Source: Pirellula staleyi DSM 6068
GTDB taxonomy: Bacteria > Planctomycetota > Planctomycetia > Pirellulales > Pirellulaceae
Direction of reading: 5' to 3'
Length of the DNA: 35,751 bases
Assembly (NCBI GenBank): GCA_945900945.1
Contig: CAMDKL010000052.1
Coordinates: 1 to 35,751 of the forward strand
Made by a program: the position numbers and the translations under genes. Under the pieces are notes generated by a model that ran no database searches, was not told the DNA's origin, and saw only the letters and a list, made by a program, of their open reading frames with translations. Shown piece after piece: positions 10,730-30,672 of this stretch (within the stretch, counting starts at the first letter, position 1; every line of letters begins with the position of its first letter).

Positions 10730-11950
10730 CTAATCTGAGAATTCCCCTCCGCCACAGGTCAAGGGGATTGCTGTCGACTTGAGCAAAACCGCTTCAATAC
10801 ACAATCCTGGACCAAAAGCCAAAAGAACACAGTAATTCGCGGCTGGTTGCTGATCCGATAGCCTATCCAAAATAAATAGAACCGTGGGGGACGACATATT
10901 TCCGTAGTTTGCAAGAATGGCCTGCGAACCCTCAAGCGATTGCGGTGGCAATCCCAGGGCCTTTCCCGTTGCTTGGATGACACGTGGGCCACCAGGGTGT
11001 ATGGCCCATGCGTCGATATCCGAGATGCACAAAGACTGCCCATCCAGCCATATTTTTAGCTCATCCTCTAGATTGGCTTCGATGACGCTTGGAACCTGTG
11101 GATCCAATGTCATTCGAAATCCATGGTCACCGATCGTCCAACTCATCAAGCAAGTGGTTTCGGGAATCCATTTCGACAGAGTGGAAACGATGGACCAATT
11201 CGCTTGCGATGGCAAGCAAGGATCGGGATCGATTTCTCGATTACCCAAGTTGTCACTCGTGGTGCCAATGACGAGTCCTGCGGCTCCATCAGCAAAGAGT
11301 GCATTTGCAACTAGTTGCTGTGCATCGTCTGTGTATTGCTGATGTAAACTGCATAGCTCGACTGCTCCGAGCAAAACGACTGCGGAGGGAGTTGCGTCGA
11401 CAATGGCTTTGGCAACGCGAATTCCGTTGAGAGCACCATGACAACCCATGAACCCAATATGCGTGCGTTGGATATTGGAGTCAAGCCCCAAAGATTCGAT
11501 CAAGGCAATATCGATACCCGGTGCAAAAAAACCAGTGCACGAGACCGTTACCAAATGGGTAATGCTCGCTTTCGCAATGCCTGAATTTTCGATCGCTGCC
11601 GCACAAGCTCGCTGTAGTATGGGCCCAGCATGTTCAGAAAACACTTTCATCCTTTCAGCCGTTGTCGGTCCAAACGGATTCGATGCGGTGGCAGGTTTAT
11701 AAAAAGTCTGACGTTGCGAGTCGGGTAACCGTTCCGGTCCCAACAAAACACTGCCGCGCCGCTGAACCCCACTCTTGCGATAGAGGGCCGGCAATGCGTC
11801 CTTCCATCGTTCCGATAAATTTAGCTGCTGAGCTACGATTGCCGCGTCGCTCTGAGCCATCGAATACGCGGGGATGGACGTAGCCAAACCAAGAATTTTG
11901 GCAATCGTCGCTTTTTTGACCAAATGCGTTTCAACGCTCGATAAACTCAT
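10730..11950 (-). CDS. Type III polyketide synthase (chalcone/alkylresorcinol synthase-like)
   Basis: This 406-residue homodimer-type ketosynthase carries the whole catalytic triad of the family: C138 in VSCTGFFAPG, H318 in AIHPGGP and N351 in YGNMSSP. The cyclisation loop FGPG lies at 379-382. The enzymes extend an acyl-CoA starter with malonyl-CoA and fold the product into a resorcinol, pyrone or related ring. The true start is ATG 11950: its first four bases ATGA overlap the TGA stop of the upstream FAD gene, giving translational coupling, and the remaining length matches the family (about 350-410). An open frame extends upstream to 12106, but it overlaps the FAD gene. The neighbours (FAD oxidoreductase, two methyltransferases) make a tailored phenolic-lipid product likely. 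The starter cannot be deduced from sequence. Confidence 0.93.
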   Translation of the reverse strand: MSLSSVETHLVKKATIAKILGLATSIPAYSMAQSDAAIVAQQLNLSERWKDALPALYRKSGVQRRGSVLLGPERLPDSQRQTFYKPATASNPFGPTTAERMKVFSEHAGPILQRACAAAIENSGIAKASITHLVTVSCTGFFAPGIDIALIESLGLDSNIQRTHIGFMGCHGALNGIRVAKAIVDATPSAVVLLGAVELCSLHQQYTDDAQQLVANALFADGAAGLVIGTTSDNLGNREIDPDPCLPSQANWSIVSTLSKWIPETTCLMSWTIGDHGFRMTLDPQVPSVIEANLEDELKIWLDGQSLCISDIDAWAIHPGGPRVIQATGKALGLPPQSLEGSQAILANYGNMSSPTVLFILDRLSDQQPAANYCVLLAFGPGLCIEAVLLKSTAIPLTCGGGEFSD

Positions 11951-13152
11951 TGACTTGTCTTTCGGATAAATGAGGCGCGCAATGGCGGAAGCCAATTGCA
12001 AGCCCGTAACACCCACGCTGCTCCGCGTGGCCATCTTATTTGGCCAGCGATCCAACGGCATGTTCTTTGTTTGTGAATTCGTTGTCGATGAGCCCAGTCG
12101 TTCCATCGAGAACTCAATTCGTCATTCCAACCATGTGCAACAATATCGGTGATTATTGGCATCACCGATTCCGCGCTTGCCAACGCCCAAGACATTCCTT
12201 CTCCAGTAAACGGCTCAACGTATCCTATCGCGTCGCCAATCAGAAAGGTGCGATGTGCGGATACGCGCGAGGAACTGCGGGTCAAACTGGGTGTTGCGAG
12301 CCATCGATCTTTTTCAGGCAAATCGATTCCACGTAAGCCGCACTCGGCGATGATCCCTTGTACGACTTGAGAAATCCCGCCGCTCGACGGGATGCTCGAT
12401 GGATCGAGGGCGGCAGCCACATCTACCAAGCCTCCGTCGGTTTTGCATATACCAACATAACCTTTGTGTCCGACCAGCATGTGCAATTGCCCATCCGCAA
12501 ACTCGGAAGCTTGTGCTGCGGAGATCAAGCATTGAACTCCGATCCGAGAATCGCTCTCTACCATGGCTGGCCAATTGTCTTCTTGTCGAATGGACGATCG
12601 CGTCAAACCACTGGCTACAAGTACACACTTTGACGAAATGACCTCCATCTCGCCATCTTTTTGTAGACGAACCGATCGCGTTGCGGACCCTGAGTCTGTC
12701 GTTGCGGCCAACAAGTTGCCGTTTGTTCGATCGATGAAATGCGATCCCTGTTCGATTGCTTGCTCGACTAAAATCTTATCCAACGTTGAGCGTCGAATGC
12801 TCATCATCGCTGGCACTCGCCATTGAGCTTGTGTCTTCAATATCTGCAATCGCATCGACTCGATGCAGACAGCTCCAGCGGATTCGATGGCTTGAGAAAC
12901 TCCAAGCCTTTCGAGAGAAGCTTGAGAACGCAAGTTAAGGCAACCGCCGCATACCTTTTCTCGCGGAAAAGCCTTCGATTCAACCAACAGTGTCTTAATG
13001 CCTTGCTTGCCGGCAAGAATGCCTGCCGCAGCTCCAGCAACTCCAGCGCCAAGGATGACCACATCCCACTGACTTTCATGCAGGTCGTGCATTGCAATAG
13101 TAGAGTGGGACGCCTCGGTAGATGCACTCGGTGATGCCTTGCTTGCGATCAT
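11947..13152 (-). CDS. FAD-dependent oxidoreductase, geranylgeranyl-reductase/aromatic hydroxylase-like
   Basis: This 401-residue flavoprotein has the dinucleotide-binding motif VILGAGVAGAAAG (GxGxxG at residues 35-40) and the conserved PREKVCGGCLN segment that follows it in the geranylgeranyl reductase/PHBH superfamily. The second FAD motif FLIGDAIGYVEPFTGEGMSW lies about residue 300. Members reduce isoprenoid double bonds or hydroxylate aromatic rings with NAD(P)H. Between a methyltransferase and a type III PKS, the best inference is ring hydroxylation of the polyketide, by analogy with the flavoprotein SrsC of the Streptomyces srsABC phenolic-lipid operon. It starts one base after the methyltransferase stop (TGA, one base, ATG) and its own stop overlaps the PKS start, so all three are coupled. 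M21 is an alternative start nearer the flavin motif. Confidence 0.88.
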   Translation of the reverse strand: MIASKASPSASTEASHSTIAMHDLHESQWDVVILGAGVAGAAAGILAGKQGIKTLLVESKAFPREKVCGGCLNLRSQASLERLGVSQAIESAGAVCIESMRLQILKTQAQWRVPAMMSIRRSTLDKILVEQAIEQGSHFIDRTNGNLLAATTDSGSATRSVRLQKDGEMEVISSKCVLVASGLTRSSIRQEDNWPAMVESDSRIGVQCLISAAQASEFADGQLHMLVGHKGYVGICKTDGGLVDVAAALDPSSIPSSGGISQVVQGIIAECGLRGIDLPEKDRWLATPSLTRSSSRVSAHRTFLIGDAIGYVEPFTGEGMSWALASAESVMPIITDIVAHGWNDELSSRWNDWAHRQRIHKQRTCRWIAGQIRWPRGAAWVLRACNWLPPLRASFIRKTSQ

Positions 13153-13153
13153 A

Positions 13154-13873
13154 TCAAGCGTCCCATCGCAGCAGATACCGCTCCGGCCAATGTCGACGCA
13201 TCGTGCACGGTTTCAAGCCCGCCTGCGCTGCCAACTCGCACGCCTCCGACTCGGTGAACGCTGCACGAACCGATTGAGGACCATCGAAATGCACCACGGG
13301 CGATCGAGACAGCAATTGGCAACCGATCTGAGCTAGCATGGTTCCTAAACGTGATCTTACTAAATCATCCACCAACACAGAAAGTCCCGCAACACGTTTC
13401 ATTCGTTCCAATACCTGAACCGCTTGGCGATCGGTGAAATGATGCAAGAACAAACAACAGTAAACGACATCAAACTTGAGATCCGTCGGCTGAAAGACAT
13501 CGATTTGTTGGAAATGCATTTCAATCGGCGACCGTCTTGAAGCTGGCAATCGATCTTGAGAGGTCGACCATACCTTGGTCGCATACTCGACCGCAGTCTT
13601 ACTAATATCCCACCCGTTGACTTTGCATTCTATCTGGCTGGAAAGCCGCCGTCCCACATCCATGGCTACGTCACCACTACCGCATCCAAGGTCCAAAACG
13701 GTGAGAGAATTGCGGTTGTTTTTCTTGGCGATGGCTAAAATTTCCTTTGCCACGTGCTTGCCGGTTTGACACAGTTTGTTGACCCGTCGCAGGCCGTTCA
13801 GGGCGCGGCGATGTTCCACGGGATCGATCGCGGGATCATCCATCCATTCTGGCACGAGAACTCTGGATTTCAT
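13154..13873 (-). CDS. Class I SAM-dependent methyltransferase of the type III PKS operon
   Basis: This 239-residue protein has methyltransferase motif I as LTVLDLGCGSGDVAMDV (about residues 57-73). Motif II-like VNGWDISKTAVEYA follows, and later DVVYCCLFLHHFTDRQ, where SAM enzymes carry post-motif II. Its opening (VPEWMDDPAIDPVEHRRALN, then LRRVN) is a pattern I associate with methyltransferases beside bacterial type III PKS genes. The probable substrate is the phenolic ring made by that operon (O- or C-methylation, cf. SrsB or BpsB); this is inference from context. It is the first gene of the operon. The ATG at 13873 has GGAG nine bases upstream. The 144-base gap to the divergent methyltransferase at 14018 must hold the operon promoter. 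Confidence 0.87.
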   Translation of the reverse strand: MKSRVLVPEWMDDPAIDPVEHRRALNGLRRVNKLCQTGKHVAKEILAIAKKNNRNSLTVLDLGCGSGDVAMDVGRRLSSQIECKVNGWDISKTAVEYATKVWSTSQDRLPASRRSPIEMHFQQIDVFQPTDLKFDVVYCCLFLHHFTDRQAVQVLERMKRVAGLSVLVDDLVRSRLGTMLAQIGCQLLSRSPVVHFDGPQSVRAAFTESEACELAAQAGLKPCTMRRHWPERYLLRWDA

Positions 13874-14017
13874 GATGGCTCCGCGATTAACTCTTACCTG
13901 AAAAGGAGAGCTCCGCTAGTTTGGAAGTGAGGGACCATGTTACGATGTCCTGATGAATCATTCAAAACATAGACACCGATTGTACACGCAAAAAGGATTT
14001 AGAACGATGCGACTCTC

Positions 14018-14917
14018 ATGCCAAGTGGTGCCCGAAACATGATCGAGTGCCCTGATATCCAAAAGTCCGTAATCAAAAATCACTACGACGTTAGTACGCT
14101 TTTCTACAGACTGCTCTGGGGGCCCCATATCCATCACGGCTATTGGCTGGCTAATGAAACTCCAGCCGCCGCACAAGTGCAATTGACTTCAACCCTTGCC
14201 GGGCTAGCAAAAATCCAACCCCATTCAGTCCTCTATGACATTGGATGCGGGATGGGGGGCTCGAGCATCTGGCTGGCCAAACAATTGCAGTGCCAGGTAA
14301 CCGGAGTCACACTCAGTCCAGTCCAACGCCAATGGGCAACCGCCAGCGCCGCTCTGAAAGGACTCCAACCAAGACCCCAATTCCTATGCGAAGACGCCGA
14401 GGCGATTGAATTTCCGCAGAAATCAGCGGATGTGGTTTGGAGCATCGAATGCACCGAGCACTTGTTTCATAAGCCCGCGTTCTTTAAAAAGGCCGCGTCA
14501 TGGCTCAAGCCAGGAGGCCGCTTCGCCTTGTTAGCATGGCTCGCGGGTGAGATGCCGATGAGCGACGTCCATTCCCAGCAAGCCTTGCGAGTTTGTGAAG
14601 GTATGTTTTGCCCGTCACTCGGCAGTCAGTCCGACTACGTACAATGGTTCGAACAAGCTGGCCTCACCGTAACGGCAAAAGGAATATGGACGGACCAAGT
14701 CAAAAAGACATGGGAGATATGCCGCAAACGCGTCGAAAAAACAGGTGTCCGATACCTCGCCAAAGTCTTAGGTAGCAACCACGTATTATTCCTAGACCAT
14801 TTTGACGCCATCTTAAACGCCTACGACTCCGGCGCCATGGAATACGGTTTTTTCATAGCGGAGAAAATCCCAGCGGGCCCAGGGGTCGTGCGCCAGTCAG
14901 AAGTGGACTTTCGCTGA
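14018..14917 (+). CDS. Class I SAM-dependent methyltransferase, tocopherol/sterol-methyltransferase-like
   Basis: This protein of up to 299 residues has the HHGYW segment (39-43) and motif I VLYDIGCGMGGSSIWLAKQL (71-90) typical of the gamma-tocopherol/sterol C-methyltransferase group. The acidic motif ADVVWSIECTEHLFHKPAFF lies further on, followed by WLKPGGRFALLAW. Such enzymes methylate quinols, phenols or lipid-like acceptors. It diverges from the type III PKS operon across a 144-base spacer, so it could act on the same product (a second methylation of the ring); this is inference from position only. The start is ambiguous: ATG 14018 or ATG 14039 (MIECPDIQKS), neither with a clear Shine-Dalgarno. 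The alternative is an unrelated quinone or lipid methyltransferase. Confidence 0.85.
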   Translation: MPSGARNMIECPDIQKSVIKNHYDVSTLFYRLLWGPHIHHGYWLANETPAAAQVQLTSTLAGLAKIQPHSVLYDIGCGMGGSSIWLAKQLQCQVTGVTLSPVQRQWATASAALKGLQPRPQFLCEDAEAIEFPQKSADVVWSIECTEHLFHKPAFFKKAASWLKPGGRFALLAWLAGEMPMSDVHSQQALRVCEGMFCPSLGSQSDYVQWFEQAGLTVTAKGIWTDQVKKTWEICRKRVEKTGVRYLAKVLGSNHVLFLDHFDAILNAYDSGAMEYGFFIAEKIPAGPGVVRQSEVDFR

Positions 14918-16797: not shown

Positions 16798-19700
16798 CTA
16801 CTTGGATTTCCGAATAAAAGTAACGACGCTTGCCATGTCTTCCGGCGTCAATACTTTTTCAAACCCTTCCGGCATAAGGGACTTTTCTGACTCGCGCATC
16901 TCGTCGATCGATGCGCGCGTCATGCTGATTAGCGATCCCTGATCGTTTACAATCTCGATCCTATCTTCGTTTTCTCGAACTTTAAGTCCCACGAGCGTGC
17001 TTCCGTCGATCGACAGGATGCTTATCCTCCGGTACTTGGCTTCCACCGATCGGTTCGGATCCAAGATCGCCGACAACCAAGCTTCGTTTTTCCAAATAGA
17101 CAACGCTTGAAGATTGGGCCCCACCGACGGTAAAACACCATTCACATCTACTCGATCCTGATGGCACTGAGCACAATGCTGTTTGTACAGCAATTCGCCG
17201 CGAGCAACATTGGTAGAGGATGCTGGCCACTTGCCGGCGTAATCGCTTACTATTGCCAGCCGATCCGTACCCGGCGGCGGACCAAAAATCTTTTCAACCA
17301 ACCCTCTCAACTCGACACTTTTGCTAGCCCTCAACTGTTCGATTTGCGCCGATTGAAAAGCGTCGACGCCAATCGCGCCGGCGGCAACTTTTTCCAGTAA
17401 TGCAGTCGCATTCTCCTCTCGAGAAATGCTTTCAGCGATAATGCCAGACCGAGTGGGCACGGAATAGTTTTCCCAGCCCGCTAGAACTTTCGTACCGGCT
17501 GGTTTCCCCAACGAAACCAGTCCCTTGACTAACGCCAGACTGAAGTTGCTATCCTGACAATTATCGAGAACGCCTACCAGAAAATCAATACTCTTGGAAT
17601 CGTTGCCGCTGGTCTTTGAAACCACCAGATCGAGAGCCGATCGCCGAGTGGTCAAGTCGCTTTGGTTGTCTCGAATGGCGACTTGGGCGTCGCTTTGCAA
17701 ACGGTCGAGGCTCGCATCATCTAACTGGTGTGACTTGTTGGTGTCGAGAGCAAATTGCCTTCCTAAAGCATAGTGCCACGCTGGGCGAACCGGAGCCCCG
17801 TGGACGATTCGTTCGCGAAGTTGCTGTTGTAATGCCGGAGTGGCTCTGGGAATCAATTGATCCAGCATTGCATTCGCACGAGCATTGGCATTGGCTAACA
17901 AAGTTTCAATCGTTGGGTCGATTCCGTGATTCGGCAAAAAAGCAATGGCTTGGTCAATCCATGGATCACCCGCATGATGAGCGAGCAGAGCAGCAGTTTC
18001 GGCGAACGCTGGCTCCTCACACAAGACAAGTGCAGCAATCAGTTGCAGCCCCAATGCGGCCGATTGACGAGCAGCTTCGGATCTCGAAACAACAACTGCA
18101 AGTTGACGTAACTCTCCATGGATTAGCTTTTGTTTTGCCATGGATTCGATTGCCCACCTAATGACTCGGTGATCGCTATCCTTGCACGCGGCAGTCCAAT
18201 CGGCTTCGGTACACCGCTGCATCGCATTCAAAGTCGCCATCGCGCGGAGTCGAACAATCGGCTGATCGGATTGCATAAGCATTCTTCGAAGCCTGTCTGG
18301 GATCGTTGTAGACAACAAACTGTGTCGCCAAATCAACTGCTGTCTAGCCACATCGGAAACAGCAGAGCTCGGACTTTGAAGCGCTGCTAATAGTTGGTCG
18401 TCGGTTGCTTTGGTCCAATCGAATTTCGCATAGGGCGTGAAATCAGACCGGTACGCTCGATAGATTCGTCCAAGGTTTTCTCCAGCCCGAACATCGATTC
18501 TTCGCTGCCAGTCGTCCGGAATCCACTCGGGGTGTTCAATGACGCGGCGATACATGTCCGCAATCCATAGAGTGCCGTCGATTCCGTTCTCGATGCGGAC
18601 GGGCCGGAACCATGGATCATTGCTCCGTAGCCATTCGCTCTGTTTATCCTCATCGAAACGCGTTCCGACGTACGTTGCGCCTTTGGCTTCCACTCGCACG
18701 CGTGAAACTAGATTATGAACACTCTCACATACCATCGCGCAACCTTGCATGTCGGGCGTTGCACCCGGACTACGACAGAATATCGAACTGCATGCGGAGG
18801 TAAACCGATTCGCAGTAAACAAGTCATTGAATCGATCTGCGTCGCGACTGATGGGATAAACGGGTGGCGACGTCGGCGGTTGAATCAGGTGCTGTGAAAG
18901 CGATCGAATATTCGAACCGGCTGCACTTACCCAATTCCGATCATAAACATAGTGAAAGATCGGATGACTGTTGTCATTTCCAAACCAATTCCCCCATTCA
19001 TCACAGCCACGAATATACTGAGTAGTGCCTGTCTCGACACCTACAATTCCATGATCGACATCCAGGCTCAGATCGCACCCGCTCACGTTGATCCTTCTGC
19101 CGGTGGCGACTTCTAGTATCTCTTTAACCTGTGAGCCTGTACCTATATGGAGACGATGGTCGAGACCGTAGGTAAAGCCGTTGACACGGTGCTGTTGATT
19201 GGCCAGGGGAAAGCCGCTCAACAAGTCGCGTCGTTCATCGGCCAGTCCATCATGATCTGTATCGCGAGTAAAGAAAACGTCGGGTGCACAAGCGACCACG
19301 ATTCCATCGCGCCACGGGTAAACGCCGACAGGGAAGGAAAGGTTATCCAAGAAAATTGTACTTGAATCTATTTTGCCATCGCCATCGGTATCGAGTAGCC
19401 GTTTGATGCATCCGGTTTTTGGACCTCCGGATGGATAGTCCCCCATCTCCACAACCCAGACGGTACCGTCGGCACCGAAGGCGATATTGACTGGGTCCTC
19501 AACCAACGGTTCGGCTGCAACCAACTCGACTTTCCAACCCTTGGGCATCTGAATGCTTTGCAAAGAGTCTGTTGAAGAAAGTGGCTGATCCAGTAGACGC
19601 TTTGAGTTGGCCATCTCCAAAACTCGGGTGACGATCAGATCCTCGGTACCAGAAACCCATCGCCCAGGTTGGTTGTAGTACAACATCGACGCGTCTACCT

Positions 19701-20979
19701 CATAGCCACCCTCATTCCGCACACGTTCGGAAGCAATGTACGCAAAGACATCGTCCGTATAAGCCGCTACCCAAACGTTTGGAAATTGACTTAGCTCCTT
19801 CTCAAGCCGAATTTGGTAGTCGACGACGACTTCGCCCCCCATAAATACCCAAGCGAGAGAGTCGCCAAAACTCCACAAGTGAATGGGGGCTGGGTACGTT
19901 TCTGGCAACCTATTTTTTTGCTTAAGGATCGCAAGCATAGCCTCTGCGAAGTTGCGTTCCACAAACGACTTGCTCTGGGACATTTCCTTTAATCGCTCTC
20001 GCGAAGGCCTTTCAGGGGCAATAGCCAATAGCTGAAAGGTCTGTGATTTGGGAGGCGGTAAATCTTGAAGCGGGCCAGCGCAAACCGACTGAACGGATTT
20101 CGCCATCTCCTGGGCATGCTTTTTCGCATGCTCGACCTTGCCGCGTGGGTTAGGGTTCGCGTCTGCTCCACATCCAATGATTGGCAACGCAATCGCCTCG
20201 GGGGCATTGCTACTGCGTAAGGCTTCTTCTAACAGACTTGCCGACATGCCAGCCCAGTCTGCGCTGATCTTGTTCAGTTCGGGAGCAATCGACGTGCAGT
20301 GGCACGCATATTGATAGGCGACGGCAATAGTGGATCCGTCGAGCCTTTTGGCATGGATTACTCTTACGGTTCGATCGACGGGACCATCGTCAACCGTTCC
20401 GAATCCAGTCCAGATATTGTTCTTAAGCAACCTACGATTGATGGCAAATTCGGCTCGCCCGGTTCCGAATCCGACAGTCGCAATTTGCATTTGCTCGATC
20501 GATTCACCTACAATTTTCACGATTCCATTGACCGTCTTGCGGCTAGTACTCGACATGTACTGTATCTCTTCAGCGCCCAGCGGTGTCGAATACAGGTTGG
20601 GTAGGACGTCGTCGAGCTGAGGGGCTGTATGCGAATGAGTTGTGCACAAAACAACTTGTTTACGTTCAAGCGAAAATCGTTCCCGCAACTGCGTGTGGAT
20701 TTGATCGGTGAGCGAAGCCGATAGGCCGATGGCATCTAGCGAAACAATAACGAGAGGCGGTTGTTCGCCATGCTTGAGTGACATTGCACGTGCGAAGAGG
20801 CGATCATCGATCTCAGCGGTTGATTGAGTTCGTGAACCATAACCACTGAGGCGAACTGGCACATCCGGAGTGATATCGGTCTTGGCAGCTCCGACTTTCC
20901 ATTCGCTCTTTATTGATTGAGCCGACAGAGATCCGGGGGCAACGAGGAACAGGCACAGCAGTGCAATCAGGATTTTCAT
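16798..20979 (-). CDS. Exported neutral-ceramidase-like / membrane-bound dehydrogenase / HEAT / cytochrome c fusion protein
   Basis: This is a 1393-residue multidomain protein. A signal peptide (1-21, ending SLSAQ) is followed by a neutral/alkaline ceramidase-like domain (about 25-440) with AAKTDITPD and the zinc-site-like TTHSHTAPQ (H115, H117). A beta-propeller of the PVC-type dehydrogenase family follows (about 475-860; GWKVELVAAEPLVEDPVNIA, LLDTDGDGKIDSSTIF). A helical HEAT-like stretch (about 870-1150) precedes a cytochrome c domain with C1269-x-x-C1272-H1273 (HCAQCHQ) that ends near VVTFIRKSK. Such large secreted oxidoreductases are typical of Planctomycetota, with poorly known substrates. 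The ceramidase-like module fused at the front is the notable part: it suggests hydrolysis of an amide or sugar substrate before oxidation. The ATG at 20979 is preferred over the GTG at 20982 directly before it. Confidence 0.9.
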   Translation of the reverse strand: MKILIALLCLFLVAPGSLSAQSIKSEWKVGAAKTDITPDVPVRLSGYGSRTQSTAEIDDRLFARAMSLKHGEQPPLVIVSLDAIGLSASLTDQIHTQLRERFSLERKQVVLCTTHSHTAPQLDDVLPNLYSTPLGAEEIQYMSSTSRKTVNGIVKIVGESIEQMQIATVGFGTGRAEFAINRRLLKNNIWTGFGTVDDGPVDRTVRVIHAKRLDGSTIAVAYQYACHCTSIAPELNKISADWAGMSASLLEEALRSSNAPEAIALPIIGCGADANPNPRGKVEHAKKHAQEMAKSVQSVCAGPLQDLPPPKSQTFQLLAIAPERPSRERLKEMSQSKSFVERNFAEAMLAILKQKNRLPETYPAPIHLWSFGDSLAWVFMGGEVVVDYQIRLEKELSQFPNVWVAAYTDDVFAYIASERVRNEGGYEVDASMLYYNQPGRWVSGTEDLIVTRVLEMANSKRLLDQPLSSTDSLQSIQMPKGWKVELVAAEPLVEDPVNIAFGADGTVWVVEMGDYPSGGPKTGCIKRLLDTDGDGKIDSSTIFLDNLSFPVGVYPWRDGIVVACAPDVFFTRDTDHDGLADERRDLLSGFPLANQQHRVNGFTYGLDHRLHIGTGSQVKEILEVATGRRINVSGCDLSLDVDHGIVGVETGTTQYIRGCDEWGNWFGNDNSHPIFHYVYDRNWVSAAGSNIRSLSQHLIQPPTSPPVYPISRDADRFNDLFTANRFTSACSSIFCRSPGATPDMQGCAMVCESVHNLVSRVRVEAKGATYVGTRFDEDKQSEWLRSNDPWFRPVRIENGIDGTLWIADMYRRVIEHPEWIPDDWQRRIDVRAGENLGRIYRAYRSDFTPYAKFDWTKATDDQLLAALQSPSSAVSDVARQQLIWRHSLLSTTIPDRLRRMLMQSDQPIVRLRAMATLNAMQRCTEADWTAACKDSDHRVIRWAIESMAKQKLIHGELRQLAVVVSRSEAARQSAALGLQLIAALVLCEEPAFAETAALLAHHAGDPWIDQAIAFLPNHGIDPTIETLLANANARANAMLDQLIPRATPALQQQLRERIVHGAPVRPAWHYALGRQFALDTNKSHQLDDASLDRLQSDAQVAIRDNQSDLTTRRSALDLVVSKTSGNDSKSIDFLVGVLDNCQDSNFSLALVKGLVSLGKPAGTKVLAGWENYSVPTRSGIIAESISREENATALLEKVAAGAIGVDAFQSAQIEQLRASKSVELRGLVEKIFGPPPGTDRLAIVSDYAGKWPASSTNVARGELLYKQHCAQCHQDRVDVNGVLPSVGPNLQALSIWKNEAWLSAILDPNRSVEAKYRRISILSIDGSTLVGLKVRENEDRIEIVNDQGSLISMTRASIDEMRESEKSLMPEGFEKVLTPEDMASVVTFIRKSK

Positions 20980-21071
20980 CACAGGTTCTTTCAGAAGTTG
21001 CTAATGAAGTTGCGTCGCATTGATTATATCGAAACCACCGCGCGACGTACTGGGGTTCAGCGATCTTCCTG

Positions 21072-22414: not shown

Positions 22415-22912
22415 TTACGCCAGTGCTTTCTCAATGGCTCCCGCTAAACTCTTGGGTGAGGTCGCTGAGGAAAAACGACCTATCACCACTCCATCACGTC
22501 CGACAAGGAATTTGGTGAAATTCCATTTAATGCTCTCGCTGCCAAGGAACCCCTTGGCGTTCGATTTCAAGAAAACGTAGAGCGGATGTGCGTCAATGCC
22601 GTTGACCTCAATCTTGGAAAACATAGGAAACGAAACATGGTATTTGAGGGAGCAGAACTCCTGGATCGATGCGTCGGACTTGGACTCTTGCGATCCAAAT
22701 TGATTGCAGGGAAAGCCCAGTGGTACTAGTCCTCGACTGTGAAACGTTTCGTACAGCGATTGCAGTTGTGCATATTGGCCAGTGAAAACGCACTGGCTAG
22801 CAACATTCACAATCAAAAGCACGGAACCACGAAACTGCTCGAGTTGAATAACCGCTCCATCCATCGTTCGGGCAGAGAGCGCGTATAGCGAAGTTATCGG
22901 TGTTGTGTTCAA
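22415..22912 (-). CDS. Glutathione peroxidase family protein (cysteine type)
   Basis: This 165-residue protein has all landmarks of the GPx/BtuE family. The peroxidatic Cys41 lies in VNVASQCVFTGQY (the usual text is NVASKCGFTxQY, with Sec or Cys), followed by GFPCNQFGSQE and the Trp/Asn motif KWNFTKFLVGRDG. It reduces hydrogen peroxide and lipid peroxides, in bacteria often with thioredoxin as donor. The start is TTG at 22912: its TTGA overlaps the TGA stop of the carotenoid desaturase, which argues for translational coupling. The residues before the conserved LYALSARTMDG fit the family length (about 160). An internal start at M17 would remove part of the conserved first strand. Linkage to a desaturase suggests protection of membrane lipids or pigments from peroxidation; that is inference. 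Confidence 0.9.
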   Translation of the reverse strand: MNTTPITSLYALSARTMDGAVIQLEQFRGSVLLIVNVASQCVFTGQYAQLQSLYETFHSRGLVPLGFPCNQFGSQESKSDASIQEFCSLKYHVSFPMFSKIEVNGIDAHPLYVFLKSNAKGFLGSESIKWNFTKFLVGRDGVVIGRFSSATSPKSLAGAIEKALA

Positions 22913-24441
22913 AGTAGCGACGACTGATGTGCAAGCTCGTGAATGAATTTGGCCGAAAGTCCAATGTCGGGCAGCAGTTGTTTGCAGGCGATTCTCGATG
23001 ACTCATAGATTACCGGAAGTCCGCTGCCAGGGTGGGTCCCTCCGCCAACCAAATAGACGCCGTCTAATTCTTCGAACTTGTTGTGAGGTCGTAAATGGAG
23101 CATTTGCCCCAGGTTGTGGGCCAAGTTAAATGTTGCTCCGCGATAAACAGAGAAATCATCTCTCCATTGGGCGGGAGTAACAATCTGTTCGTATTCGATC
23201 CTGGTCCGCAAATCGCTCAAACCAATCTCTGCAAGTTTCTTGAATGCGGTTTCTCGAAACGCTTGTGTCTGAGCTTCGTCCCAGGGAGTGCTTGGACTCA
23301 AATGCGGAACCGGGACGAGGACGTAAATCGTGCTCTTACCGTCAGGCGCAAGTGACGGATCGGTCACGCACGGGTTTTGAACATAGATGGATGGGTCGTC
23401 GGGCAATACCATTTCCTTTTCGATTTGACGCAGGTTTCTATCGTAGTCTTTGGAAATATGAATCGTGTGGTGCTTTAGGTTTTCGTAGCGGCCTTGGATG
23501 CCCAAGTACATCATAAATGTTGAGCAGGAAAATCGCTTCTTCGCAATCTTTGCATTGGACCAGCGCTTTCTGAATTCATCCGGAACAAGCTGTTGCATCG
23601 CGTGGGCGAAGTCTGCATTGATAACGAACGCATCCGCTTCGTAACGTCCCTTGGTGGTCACTACCGCTGTGACTCGTTTGCCTTGAAACTCAAGACTTTT
23701 AACCGGTTCGTCCGTTCGGATTTCGCATCCCATTTCAGTTGCGACTTCGGCCATTCGTTCGCTGACTTGGCCGCAACCGCCGATCGGATGGAACACTCCG
23801 TATTCGTACTCGAGGAAAGATAGAATCGAGAATAGGCTTGGGCATTTAAATGGCGACATTCCCAGATACTTGGCTTGGAATGAAAATGCGATGACCAATC
23901 TGGGGTCATGAAAATAGCTTTGCAAATCTCTGCCAAGTGACTTCCACGGCTTCAAAAGAGATGCCGCCGCGAGCACCGAGGGACGCAGCAGATCGAGCAT
24001 GCTGTTGAACGGTGATTCCAAAATCGGACGAAATTTCGCCAACTTCACCCGATTATGGTCGAGGTACTTTTTTAACGCCCCGACGTCCTGCGGCGATAAT
24101 TCGGCGATTTGTCGGTCCATCTCTTCGAGATTGTGGGTGCAGTCTAAATGACCACCAGCACCGAATGAAACGCGATACTGTGGATCCAGCCGCTTCATCG
24201 GAATTTCAACGTCGATGTCTCGACCGACCGATTGAAAGATCTCTCGTAGAATACGAGGGTAGAGGTAAAAAGTTGGTCCGGTGTCGAACCGAAAACCGTT
24301 CGCGTAGATACTTGCACATCGTCCGCCAACCTGCGAACGAGACTCCAAAACCGTGACCTCCGCTCCTCCATGAGCGAGTTGCAGCGCCGAAGCCAATCCA
24401 CCAGGTCCGGCACCAATAACCACGACTCGACGCTTCGCCAT
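22909..24441 (-). CDS. Phytoene/diapophytoene desaturase-type FAD carotenoid oxidoreductase
   Basis: This 510-residue protein belongs to the CrtI/CrtN desaturase family. It opens with the FAD motif VVVIGAGPGGLASALQLA (GxGxxG at 10-15), GGRCASIYANGFRFDTGPTF follows as in CrtI, and it ends with DGVYLVGGGTHPGSGLPVIY, the family C-terminal FAD signature. These enzymes introduce double bonds into phytoene or diapophytoene in the membrane, giving pink-orange carotenoids. The ATG at 24441 is used; the frame extends upstream to 24525, but that part lacks conservation and AGGA lies about 12 bases before 24441. No phytoene synthase is visible in the window, so whether the substrate is C40 or C30 is unknown. 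Its stop overlaps the GPx start by four bases. Confidence 0.92.
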   Translation of the reverse strand: MAKRRVVVIGAGPGGLASALQLAHGGAEVTVLESRSQVGGRCASIYANGFRFDTGPTFYLYPRILREIFQSVGRDIDVEIPMKRLDPQYRVSFGAGGHLDCTHNLEEMDRQIAELSPQDVGALKKYLDHNRVKLAKFRPILESPFNSMLDLLRPSVLAAASLLKPWKSLGRDLQSYFHDPRLVIAFSFQAKYLGMSPFKCPSLFSILSFLEYEYGVFHPIGGCGQVSERMAEVATEMGCEIRTDEPVKSLEFQGKRVTAVVTTKGRYEADAFVINADFAHAMQQLVPDEFRKRWSNAKIAKKRFSCSTFMMYLGIQGRYENLKHHTIHISKDYDRNLRQIEKEMVLPDDPSIYVQNPCVTDPSLAPDGKSTIYVLVPVPHLSPSTPWDEAQTQAFRETAFKKLAEIGLSDLRTRIEYEQIVTPAQWRDDFSVYRGATFNLAHNLGQMLHLRPHNKFEELDGVYLVGGGTHPGSGLPVIYESSRIACKQLLPDIGLSAKFIHELAHQSSLL

Positions 24442-24711
24442 GTATGTTCGCAATCCTACGGACTTAAATTCTGGCGGTTTCCAGCCAGTTGATAAATGAA
24501 ACAGGATTTCGATCTGAAATAGCACGACGCGCGAGCTATGGATTCCTGACTTGGAAGTTATAGCAGACCGGCAAGTCGAAGAAGAAAGTTTGAATTGTCA
24601 AAAGTCAACGAAAACCTATCTTGATTGAATCCTCGTTCACGATTCAGATGGATGGGTCGCCAAACATCAGCATTTCGCAATTCAACGAGCGACAAGAACT
24701 GGAATAGCAAT

Positions 24712-27243: not shown

Positions 27244-29523
27244 ATGAGCACACCGATCTGGATTCTCGCGAGGCTTTTTCTGATTTTTCTTGTGTTTTCG
27301 TTAGTGAACGTACACTTCGCATGCTCTCAGGATCCATTTTCAACGGACGCTCTAGGGGCTATTGATCCTGAAAACGCAGACAATTCGGCTTCAACCAAGG
27401 CTGGCAATGGTAGCCAAGTCCTGGGAAATCGTTTTGATCCCAACGAACGAAGTGCGGTCGTCCTTTCGCTTCGCACCAATCCGCCCCGGACAGCATCCGA
27501 GCTAGCCCGCGCTATCCAGCTGATGGCACGAATTCAACGATGGGACGAAGTGGGACATTGGCTCGATGAGGCTGTTAAGTTGGGGCTGAACGAAGAAAAC
27601 GCGATGCAAATGGTTCAAAACGCTGGGACTCAGACTTTTCTCCAGTTAACTAGCAGGGAAGCAAATTTATCTGATTTACGGAAGACAAACGCTACCAAGA
27701 TTTTGAATCTCGTGTCTGCGGCTACGAACAATCCAAATAAACTGATTGGTAATGTCGTATCGCTTCGGAGCAATAACCGGACCGTACGCATCCAAGCCCA
27801 TAGGGCCTTAGAATCGGCTGGAAACCGCGGCGTGTCGGCCCTAATCAATCACCTGCTCGCAGAAAGTTCTACGGCTCCCAATGCAACGATGAGTGAAGCG
27901 TTTTCGTTGATGGGCAAGCCAGCCTTTGCTGCTTGGCAAACGGCTATGAGTTCGCCTCATGCGGATGCAAGGAGTCGGTTAGCGTTGCTTGCAGCTCGTT
28001 CAGGCGAGCCGTCGCTTTCTACCGAATTGTGCGTTGCCGCGATTGATCCAGCGATAGACAAGACGGTCCGAGATGAACTTGCAAAAGTAGCTGGCGATCG
28101 GAACAAGTCGATACCTGCGGTCAAGGCCGTTTATCGTCATACAATCGAGCAGATGCAAAGGTCACTCCTGGCCTTTCAAAAGATCCGCTGGATGGATGAG
28201 CCTGATGCGTTTACGACATGGCAACTCTCCGTGGATGGTCGATCTGTTTTAGAAAAACCGGCTCGGTTAGCGGACTTGGATTGGACGCGGGCAGCGCAGC
28301 TTGCGAACGCTTCCTTGCGGTGTGGGGAGTTGGCGGATAGCAGTTCGGGCATTGCGGTTGCCGTCCTCCTTGAAAACGCTTGTGTTTCCTTACCGGAAGC
28401 GGCTAGCAGCGTAACGATCGCGAGCGTAGCTGCTAGCTTGCCGAACACGATTCTCGATAGTTACGAGTTTGGGTGTCTTGTTTGGGATGGAGCCGAAAAT
28501 GCCAGTCTAGCTTCTGCTCAACTCGTTGCAGTTCGGAATCTCGCACGCTGGGCCATACCCGCGACAATACCCGGCGCTGTTCGAGAGCGACTCTCGCACG
28601 CATGCGGATCCGGCTTTGCCTCGGTTCGTTATGCTGCTGCACAGGCAATGCTCGGGGTAATGGTCAGCCAAAAGGATGATGGTTCGCTCCAGCTTGCTGA
28701 CGTTCATTTCGATGGCCGAAATCGACTAGAACGGGTACTTGCTGAAATGAGAATGCTAGACGGGAATCCATTAGCATTGGTTGTGGGGGGAGCTTCGGAC
28801 CTCCGGACGCATACGAGAACTCTCCTCGAATCTTTTGGCTACAGAATTTTGGAAGCATCGTCGGCATCGCAAACCATGAGCTTTCTGAGGGAGGGAAAAC
28901 CGATTGAGGCGGTCATTGTGGTAGCGCATGTGCGTGAGATGAACCTCGGCGAGCTCATTCAGAGGATTCGCGCCAATCCAGCGACCGCAACTTGCCCAAT
29001 CGCTATTCTTGCTGCATCCTTAAGCAGGGGCGAACATCAGATTGCCGGATCAGACATGCGATTGGTAATGGGGAGTGTCCCGCCCGAACAGGTCGGTTTA
29101 GCCGATATTCTGCGCCGGATGAGAATCGTGACCCAATCCCCGCTGATCGATTCCGCCGACCGAAACACTTGGCGTGACCTATCCACCTCCTATTGGTCCG
29201 AACGGCAGCGCAATTTTGTATCGTCTCAGCCAAAGGGCTTCCGACCGATGCTCGCTGACACCCCAGTAGGTCAATTGCAATTGATACAAATAGCCATGGA
29301 TTATTCGAAGCCATTGCCTCAACGTGAGCAGGCTAGCCAAAATTTTGTTCAATCCGTTAGGCAATTTGGCGTTATGATATCTTCTGAGACTGTTACGGTT
29401 CAGTACGAAGAGTATAACAAACGAGGTCCAGACGACTTGGACCTTAGAATTACCCTTGGACGCATACTGGATGCGATCGAGGCGGCGAAGGGAGATAGGT
29501 CCTGGGCCGAAGTCGCACCCTAA
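27244..29523 (+). CDS. Exported helical-repeat protein with a degenerate receiver-like domain
   Basis: This is a 759-residue protein of unknown function. An N-terminal hydrophobic segment (about 6-28; ILARLFLIFLVFSLV) then ACSQDP indicates export or membrane anchoring. Residues about 90-460 are helical and HEAT-like (NRTVRIQAHRALESAGNRGV is the clearest unit). Residues about 508-600 look like a response-regulator receiver fold, with PLALVVGGASDLRTHTRTLL then ESFGYRILEASSASQTMSFL and VIVVAHVREMNLGEL. The acidic pair is replaced by GG and the phospho-acceptor Asp by a residue in VVAHV, so it cannot be a normal phosphorylated receiver. A helical tail ends at 29523. The gene precedes a sigma-54 activator by 63 bases. 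The ATG at 27244 has no good Shine-Dalgarno. Confidence 0.7.
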   Translation: MSTPIWILARLFLIFLVFSLVNVHFACSQDPFSTDALGAIDPENADNSASTKAGNGSQVLGNRFDPNERSAVVLSLRTNPPRTASELARAIQLMARIQRWDEVGHWLDEAVKLGLNEENAMQMVQNAGTQTFLQLTSREANLSDLRKTNATKILNLVSAATNNPNKLIGNVVSLRSNNRTVRIQAHRALESAGNRGVSALINHLLAESSTAPNATMSEAFSLMGKPAFAAWQTAMSSPHADARSRLALLAARSGEPSLSTELCVAAIDPAIDKTVRDELAKVAGDRNKSIPAVKAVYRHTIEQMQRSLLAFQKIRWMDEPDAFTTWQLSVDGRSVLEKPARLADLDWTRAAQLANASLRCGELADSSSGIAVAVLLENACVSLPEAASSVTIASVAASLPNTILDSYEFGCLVWDGAENASLASAQLVAVRNLARWAIPATIPGAVRERLSHACGSGFASVRYAAAQAMLGVMVSQKDDGSLQLADVHFDGRNRLERVLAEMRMLDGNPLALVVGGASDLRTHTRTLLESFGYRILEASSASQTMSFLREGKPIEAVIVVAHVREMNLGELIQRIRANPATATCPIAILAASLSRGEHQIAGSDMRLVMGSVPPEQVGLADILRRMRIVTQSPLIDSADRNTWRDLSTSYWSERQRNFVSSQPKGFRPMLADTPVGQLQLIQIAMDYSKPLPQREQASQNFVQSVRQFGVMISSETVTVQYEEYNKRGPDDLDLRITLGRILDAIEAAKGDRSWAEVAP

Positions 29524-29586: not shown

Positions 29587-30672
29587 ATGGCCAGTTTCGG
29601 GCTGGAAAACGAAGGGAACTATCGGCACAACAGCAGCATCCAACTGCCCGGCGTGATCGGTTCGAGCCCTGCCATGCAGGAGGTTTTTCGCGTCACCCGA
29701 CGCGTTGCAATGAGCAATGCGTCCGTTCTGCTGCTTGGTGAGACGGGGACGGGCAAAGAGGTCATCGCCAACGCCATTCACCACCTCAGCAATCGCAATG
29801 GCGGCCCATTCGTGAAAGTCAATTGCGGTGCCTTGAGCGAAAGCCTGCTCGAAAGCGAACTCTTTGGCCACGTACGGGGTGCTTTCACGGGAGCGGTCGG
29901 GAATCGAGCTGGACGCTTCGAAACAGCTCATACGGGAACGATCTTCCTCGACGAGATCAACAGCACTTCCATGCACCTCCAAGTCAAGCTTCTCAGAGTT
30001 TTGCAACAGAGGGAATTTGAACGGGTGGGCGATACAGAGACGATTACGGTCGATACTCGGGTCATTGCGGCCAGCAATCGAGATTTGGCCGATGAGATCC
30101 GCCTAGAAAAATTCCGAGAGGATCTCTATTGGCGGCTCAACGTGGTGCCTATCGAATTACCTCCGCTTCGAAAGCGACGTGAAGACATTCCAGCACTGAT
30201 TGCACACTTTTTGCATCAGTACAGTGCAAGCAACGACCGATACGTTGTCCATATCCAACGTGAGGCCATGCAAGCCCTGCAGGACTACCATTGGCCTGGC
30301 AACGTGCGAGAACTCCAAAATTACATCGAACGATCGGTGGTGATGGCAGACTCGGACGAGTTAACCGTTCAGCTGTTGCCCGGTTGCGTTACAGGAGCGT
30401 CGCCGAACACTGCTTCGACCGAATCTCGCCCTCTTGATTTCGATTCCTTGGTTAAGGAAGTTGTTCAAGAAGGGGTTCGCATTAGCAATCCCGAACAAAC
30501 CGACTTGCACAGCAAGGTTGTAGATCGAGTTGAGAAGGAGTTGATTTCGCAAGTGCTTTCAAACTGCAATTTTGTGCAGACCAAAGCCGCGACGCGATTG
30601 GGAATCAATCGAAACACGCTGCACAAGAAGATGAAAGAATATAACCTTGAGGGGCTCGATTCGGGCGAATAG
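29587..30672 (+). CDS. Sigma-54-dependent transcriptional activator lacking a sensor domain (PspF-like)
   Basis: This 361-residue protein is a bacterial enhancer-binding AAA+ ATPase. The AAA+ core has Walker A GETGTGKE (51-58), the sigma-54 contact loop GAFTGA intact at 98-103 (LFGHVRGAFTGAV), Walker B GTIFLDE (117-123) and the R-finger region FREDLYWRLNVVPIELPPLR. A Fis-type helix-turn-helix ends the protein (QTKAATRLGINRNTLHKKMK). There are only about 20 residues before the AAA+ domain, so no receiver, PAS or GAF sensor is present; activity must be set by another protein, as PspA does for PspF. The gene follows the exported pseudo-receiver protein and precedes ribBA by 36 bases. Targets are unknown, but a sigma-54 promoter precedes dnaK in this window. 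Confidence 0.92.
   Translation: MASFGLENEGNYRHNSSIQLPGVIGSSPAMQEVFRVTRRVAMSNASVLLLGETGTGKEVIANAIHHLSNRNGGPFVKVNCGALSESLLESELFGHVRGAFTGAVGNRAGRFETAHTGTIFLDEINSTSMHLQVKLLRVLQQREFERVGDTETITVDTRVIAASNRDLADEIRLEKFREDLYWRLNVVPIELPPLRKRREDIPALIAHFLHQYSASNDRYVVHIQREAMQALQDYHWPGNVRELQNYIERSVVMADSDELTVQLLPGCVTGASPNTASTESRPLDFDSLVKEVVQEGVRISNPEQTDLHSKVVDRVEKELISQVLSNCNFVQTKAATRLGINRNTLHKKMKEYNLEGLDSGE

Follow-up and report, generated by a model that had tools for sequence, protein, structure and literature searches.

In Planctomycetes, the closest described relatives of the genes considered here are the operons surveyed by Milke et al. 2024 (PMC10896814), who counted 96 type III polyketide synthase (PKS) genes across 131 genomes of the phylum and found 58 to be the last gene of a methyltransferase-oxidoreductase-PKS operon. 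According to their text, PKSs of the operon type gave pentadecyl- and heptadecylresorcinols in C. glutamicum, the methyltransferase and flavin adenine dinucleotide (FAD) enzyme genes of Gimesia maris led to singly methylated resorcinols, probably C-methylated, and the operon was likened to cyanobacterial hidABC, five of the six planctomycetal PKSs tested grouping with HidC in the authors' tree. The hidABC genes of Cyanobium (hierridin B; Costa et al. 2019, as described in PMC10896814 and PMC8086630) encode a methyltransferase, an oxidoreductase and a type III PKS in the same order, HidA being reported to O-methylate whereas the G. maris enzyme probably methylates carbon (PMC10896814); some cyanobacterial clusters are described with a second methyltransferase (PMC8086630). 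Here we analyse the whole of a 35,751-nucleotide contig from Pirellula staleyi DSM 6068 (assembly GCA_945900945.1, contig CAMDKL010000052.1, C52 in our numbering; hereafter the window), which belongs to a genome of 6.47 Mb in 313 contigs that is 99.96% complete. The window holds the planctomycetal operon with the genes, order and direction of its relatives in the phylum, PKS last, and adds to it a divergent second methyltransferase gene, MT2; MT2 probably belongs to the alkylresorcinol pathway, and the tie of MT2, and of the gene module around it in many relatives, to this pathway is the new part of our analysis.

In srsABC of Streptomyces and Bps of Bacillus a PKS and a methyltransferase likewise act on a phenolic lipid, and srs includes a flavoprotein as well; neither is known to have an MT2 or a carrier module. 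An original prediction, made from the letters of the window, had matched the locus to these two systems and mentioned an alkylresorcinol precedent in Planctomycetota. The precedent exists and the phenolic-lipid logic is borne out by it, but the nearest described relatives are hidABC of picocyanobacteria and its planctomycetal counterpart, and not srsABC or Bps; alkylquinones of S. griseus are mentioned in the same paper (PMC10896814). Both the likeness to hidABC and the distance from srsABC and Bps are drawn from descriptions of these systems.

Results

On the minus strand of the window, a methyltransferase of 239 amino acids in the position of HidA (MT1, 13154-13873, PRK06202-like), a FAD-dependent oxidoreductase of 401 amino acids in the position of HidB (11947-13152) and a type III PKS of 406 amino acids and of alkylresorcinol-synthase type (10730-11950) follow one another. 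As the original prediction had it, a single base separates the MT1 and FAD enzyme genes, the PKS start codon (ATG, 11950-11948) overlaps the FAD enzyme stop codon (11949-11947) in an ATGA, and MT2 (14018-14917, plus strand, 299 amino acids, a tocopherol/CMAS-type class I S-adenosylmethionine methyltransferase) diverges across a spacer of 144 bases (13874-14017), the very place that a YceI gene occupies in the sister genome G136. The PKS frame extends upstream to an ATG at 12106; the ATGA start is nevertheless likely the true one, since conservation among 50 PKS proteins sets in only at residue 71 of the longer frame, that is, residue 19 of the ATGA-start form. The family consensus of MT2 begins at Met8 of the annotated frame (base 14039), so that the true divergent gap may be 165 bases instead of 144.

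The three-gene core is the planctomycetal alkylresorcinol operon already known from Milke et al. 2024, and the notion of a new biosynthetic class was rejected, the core being in print (PMC10896814). A gene-order scan covered 141 loci, 14 of which were dropped as repeats of the same place; among those remaining, 85 contain MT1, FAD enzyme and PKS genes together, and in 76 of the 85 the three are contiguous and co-directional, with PKS last. Such an arrangement is not to be put down to chance. Of 149 genomes of the family, 78 have PKS, 80 have MT1 and 72 have the FAD enzyme; the PKS-positive genomes account for 76 of the MT1 and 70 of the FAD enzyme genomes. MT2 stands divergent beside the operon in seven of seven genomes of the genus (the window's included). 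The order and the divergent methyltransferase are thus conserved in relatives, and the scattering of the genes by which the original prediction was to be refuted is not seen for the core.

MT2 is tied to the pathway first by its distribution. PKS is present in every one of the 41 MT2 genomes of the family but in 78 of the 149 when all are counted (Fisher p 2.9e-15), and the same holds by genus (24/24 MT2 genera against 36/68 overall, p 8.3e-10), in tests that take no account of shared ancestry; at 49% identity or more, 33 of 33 MT2 genomes are PKS-positive. A phylum sample of 392 genomes, mostly from outside the family, yielded an MT2 match at E<=1e-15 in 29, of which only the 13 at E<=1e-34 (window included) were counted as MT2; PKS is present in 11 of the 12 others in this strong class. 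The 16 weaker matches (26-35% identity), six of which are accompanied by some PKS match at E<=1e-15, look like generic methyltransferases.

The placement of MT2 is far from uniform. Among 103 MT2 loci, the gene is divergent from MT1-FAD-PKS, as in the window, in 27, convergent behind PKS in 17, in line upstream of the operon in nine, last in an MT1-FAD-MT2 arrangement in four and part of a bare MT2-PKS pair in three, and 28 show no MT1, FAD enzyme or PKS gene within the available stretch, some of these stretches being short. Four genomes have MT2 unlinked and keep PKS all the same, 1.5 Mb away on the same contig in G028 and on another contig in G086, G013 and G077; G139 and G050 were not counted as unlinked because MT2 and PKS sit there at contig ends. 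Such varied placement, with PKS kept where MT2 is unlinked, leans less on shared ancestry than do the co-occurrence tests.

The four-gene view of the original prediction missed a larger module around MT2. We clustered the open reading frames around 60 regions chosen for PKS or MT2 matches, together with those of the window, without preselecting families and covering the PKS-positive genomes in part: besides the four genes, only three families recur in more than seven loci, namely YceI (21), a membrane protein of ~270 amino acids (20) and an MMPL transporter (17). A search of named genomes found 144 MT2 relatives, and in the 80 loci kept the membrane protein, a putative methyltransferase (membrane MT), occurs in 68 and YceI in 66. 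Where at least 20.5 kb were available (38 loci, ~10 kb per side), PKS is found in 34, MT1 in 31, the FAD enzyme in 31, membrane MT in 30, YceI in 29 and MMPL in 15. Depending on the locus, the module is divergent from, convergent with or in line with MT1-FAD-PKS; in the record of Rhodopirellula baltica strain BR-MGV (L209), YceI-MT2-membrane MT-MMPL-MT1-FAD-PKS run in one direction with short gaps or overlaps, and the operon may therefore be seven genes long. Botrimarina colliarenosi Pla108 has two copies of MT2 (L198/L205), one bare beside MT1-FAD-PKS like that of the window and the other in a YceI-MT2-membrane MT-MMPL module on a different contig.

Within the family, only genomes with both MT2 and PKS have the module YceI, found in 21, or the membrane MT, counted in 22 at >200 bits (out of 54 matched at E<=1e-10, the other matches reaching at most 83 bits); the MT2 match of G019, G032 and G084 is a distant copy (35-40%). 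As an MMPL match is found in 148 of the 149 genomes, its co-occurrence is uninformative and only adjacency counts. Two orders of the class contain loci with MT2 and the module. Against the methanethiol S-methyltransferase MddA, the membrane protein stays under the cut-off; its structural model appears to resemble ICMT and sterol reductases, a likeness that emerged only on a second structural look, Foldseek alone having returned no significant match (best E 0.19).

A text search of the literature, with subscription papers outside its coverage, found no description of a YceI-MT2-membrane MT(-MMPL) module. Genes adjoining the planctomycetal PKS operons are said by Milke et al. to be conserved only among close relatives, a statement that does not hold for this module, and the lipid/isoprenoid-binding protein that they place ahead of two methyltransferases in 'S. 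ferox' may be the same YceI theme (PMC10896814). Lipids reported in complex with YceI lipocalins include ubiquinone-8, octaprenylphenol and octaprenylphosphate; one such lipocalin, BcnA, is reported to bind alpha-tocopherol and to take part in an envelope defence against lipid peroxyl radicals (Naguib et al. 2022, PMC9113575). Lipid binding would thus be a plausible job for the module YceI, although BcnA-type YceI is linked there to cytochrome b561 and not to a PKS.

Compared with its congeners, the window appears to carry a reduced version of the locus. All of the six further genomes of the genus that were examined have the module YceI and membrane MT, and in the sister genome G136, whose PKS is 76-78% identical to that of the window, membrane MT-MT2-YceI is divergent from MT1-FAD-PKS. 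Aligned with a 20.8 kb stretch of that sister, the window shows DNA similarity only over 10771-13884 and 14025-14867, and lacks the two module genes that flank MT2 in the sister, YceI on the MT1 side and membrane MT on the other. No remnant of either was detected in the window by tblastn with 20 + 20 homologues (best E 0.002, inside MT1), and neither has a match in the genome as a whole. Elsewhere this genome encodes two YceI proteins that differ from the module one, and an MMPL homologue. We infer that this genome lost the two genes rather than never having had them. MT2 is the most conserved of the four proteins (90% identical to that of the sister), and its nonsynonymous divergence (dN) of 0.063 is the lowest, against 0.152 for PKS, 0.194 for MT1 and 0.235 for the FAD enzyme, with synonymous sites near saturation, which suggests that MT2 works without its module partners in this genome. 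The sister genome does not share the C-terminal tail of MT2 (~14867-14917, plus strand); the 3' end of the gene may have been exchanged upon loss of the adjacent membrane-MT gene.

MT2 also sheds light on Stieleria maiorica. According to Milke et al., the operon comprises three genes in R. baltica and in G. maris and two in S. maiorica, where the oxidoreductase is missing (PMC10896814). The six primers published for knocking out PKS in S. maiorica all match within a single stretch of genome G148 (L113), in which MT2 directly precedes PKS; this MT2-PKS pair lies at 3.17 Mb, and an MT1-FAD pair lies at 7.74 Mb (L114), ~4.5 Mb away. The two-gene operon is therefore probably MT2-PKS, in a strain that has a homologous oxidoreductase elsewhere.

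The core enzymes fit the assignment. Both Chal_sti_synt domains of the PKS score above cut-off, and an alignment of 50 PKS proteins retains the motifs GFMGCHG, HPGGP and GNMSS, with Cys, His and Asn that we take to be the functional residues; the protein is 44-49% identical to PKSs in Rhodopirellula, Botrimarina and Aeoliella records. MT1 comes nearest to the PRK06202 model (186 bits, cut-off 243).

The FAD enzyme, with conserved GAGxAG, FPRxKVCGxCLN and GDxxGYxEPFTGEG motifs, scores above the FAD_binding_3 cut-off. It had been placed near the geranylgeranyl-reductase branch, and TIGR02032 (geranylgeranyl-reductase superfamily) is indeed its nearest NCBIfam model; the score, however, is 108.1 bits, below the cut-off of 158.8, MenJ scores 64.2 against a cut-off of 700, and the subfamily and equivalog cut-offs that would make it a geranylgeranyl reductase are not reached. 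The YxWxFP motif of geranylgeranyl reductases is not among the residues conserved in 50 homologues of the FAD enzyme. Further, the 17:1 heptadecenyl products are reported to persist, alongside singly methylated ones, in C. glutamicum with the PKS, methyltransferase and FAD genes of G. maris (PMC10896814, Table 3). The suggestion that the flavoprotein reduces a double bond of the chain hence finds no support, and we set it aside.

For MT2, the best Pfam model is CMAS (PF02353; 73.6 bits, gathering score 27), which also matches methyltransferases other than cyclopropane synthases, and the homologues named by JGI are called 'tocopherol O-methyltransferase'. A tocopherol-type enzyme, as originally proposed, agrees with these names but not with the best Pfam model; the motifs WGxHIHHG and SxExxEH presumably resemble those of plant gamma-TMT. 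Unlike the tocopherol/MPBQ ring methyltransferases, MT2 sits in a type III PKS pathway. In E. coli Cfa, the carbonate site is formed by C139, E239, H266, I268 and Y317; in 14 MT2 proteins only Glu239 of these five is kept, as judged from a single automatic alignment, which is doubtful around the last ligand. The solved structural neighbours of MT2 include O-, N- and C-methyltransferases, and in the comparison of folds the ring methyltransferases and the cyclopropane synthases fit equally well.

Discussion

In our opinion the locus is most probably a planctomycetal hid-type alkylresorcinol operon accompanied by the surviving methyltransferase of a tailoring and export module of the same pathway. 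By the precedent of relatives in the literature, the PKS would extend a long-chain acyl starter with three malonyl units and close a 5-alkylresorcinol ring, which MT1 and the FAD enzyme would then modify with one C-methylation. The FAD enzyme may in addition hydroxylate the ring. MT2 would add a further methyl group to the PKS product, probably at a ring carbon, as suggested by the analogy with tocopherol methyltransferases and by the absence of four of the five Cfa ligands. In many relatives, the ICMT/MddA-like membrane MT, the YceI lipid-binding protein and, less often, MMPL may finish the lipid and carry it to the envelope. Milke et al. anticipated three or more steps in the pathway and assigned no role as yet to the G. 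maris FAD enzyme or to either of the two 'S. ferox' methyltransferases (PMC10896814); with the MT2 module, specific genes can be put forward for the tailoring and transport that are still missing, and the MT2-PKS reading of S. maiorica makes a native product testable in a genetically tractable strain.

Several points weigh against this proposal. MT2 is missing from 37 of the 78 PKS-positive genomes of the family and is thus not needed for the core pathway; in eight of the 41 MT2 genomes all copies are distant ones, at 35-41% identity, and may represent a separate subfamily, and in G293, a genome 85% complete, an MT2-like gene is present (41% identity) and no PKS was detected. Of the 33 genomes whose MT2 is at least 49% identical, 13, among them that of the window, lack both the module YceI and the membrane MT. 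The Fisher and hypergeometric tests take no account of shared ancestry. No assay of an MT2 protein was found, and the planctomycetal enzymes are reported to have given no alkylquinones in C. glutamicum (PMC10896814).

The likeliest of the alternatives, which we hold to be possible though doubtful, is compatible with the surviving-module proposal: the pathway would end at a C- or O-methylated alkylresorcinol, secreted as a hierridin-like allelochemical with no quinone or envelope role, and YceI and MMPL would be its secretion route. Milke et al. describe hierridin B as O-methylated, obtained methyl-alkylresorcinols only from the G. maris genes and saw neither a growth nor a beta-lactam phenotype in the S. 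maiorica PKS mutant; against this, by the same account, the compounds made in C. glutamicum may not be the final ones, and the extracts had no antimicrobial effect beyond controls (PMC10896814).

It is tempting to hypothesize that Planctomycetes have an independent route to a redox lipid akin to vitamin E or ubiquinol, in which PKS would build the phenolic head together with the tail, MT1, the tocopherol-like MT2 and membrane MT would methylate the ring, and a dedicated YceI and MMPL would distribute the product in the outer envelope as a chain-breaking antioxidant or electron carrier. The thought stems from the YceI lipocalins, which hold ubiquinone-8 and octaprenylphenol and one of which defends against peroxyl radicals; we nonetheless regard it as unlikely. 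If it were true, the window would represent a reduced form in which MT2 still acts and the dedicated carrier is lost.

More improbable still is an MT2 that, like a cyclopropane synthase, would add a methylene or methyl group to the double bond of unsaturated alkylresorcinols or acyl starters: the CMAS match invites the idea and the fold does not discriminate, but only the glutamate of the five Cfa ligands is kept in the MT2 proteins as aligned automatically, and we have relegated it to a minor rival. Least probable of all, MT2 would be an unrelated neighbour from lipid or quinone metabolism, held by chance or shared regulation, as the four unlinked copies and the 28 loci without a core gene might hint, an explanation at odds with the PKS kept in those same four genomes, with co-occurrence in 41 of 41 and with the different pathway parts that MT2 adjoins in different genomes.

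Other genes in the window

Three further features of the window lie outside the alkylresorcinol locus. On the minus strand, one frame of 1394 amino acids (16798-20982) combines the N-terminal domain of a neutral ceramidase (PF04734) with DUF7133 and a cytochrome c domain, and at 22415-24525 a four-base overlap, suggestive of co-translation, links the genes of an amine-oxidase-like flavoprotein and a glutathione-peroxidase-like protein. On the plus strand, a frame of 759 amino acids (27244-29523) with no Pfam match at E<=0.001 adjoins a sigma-54 activator (29587-30672).

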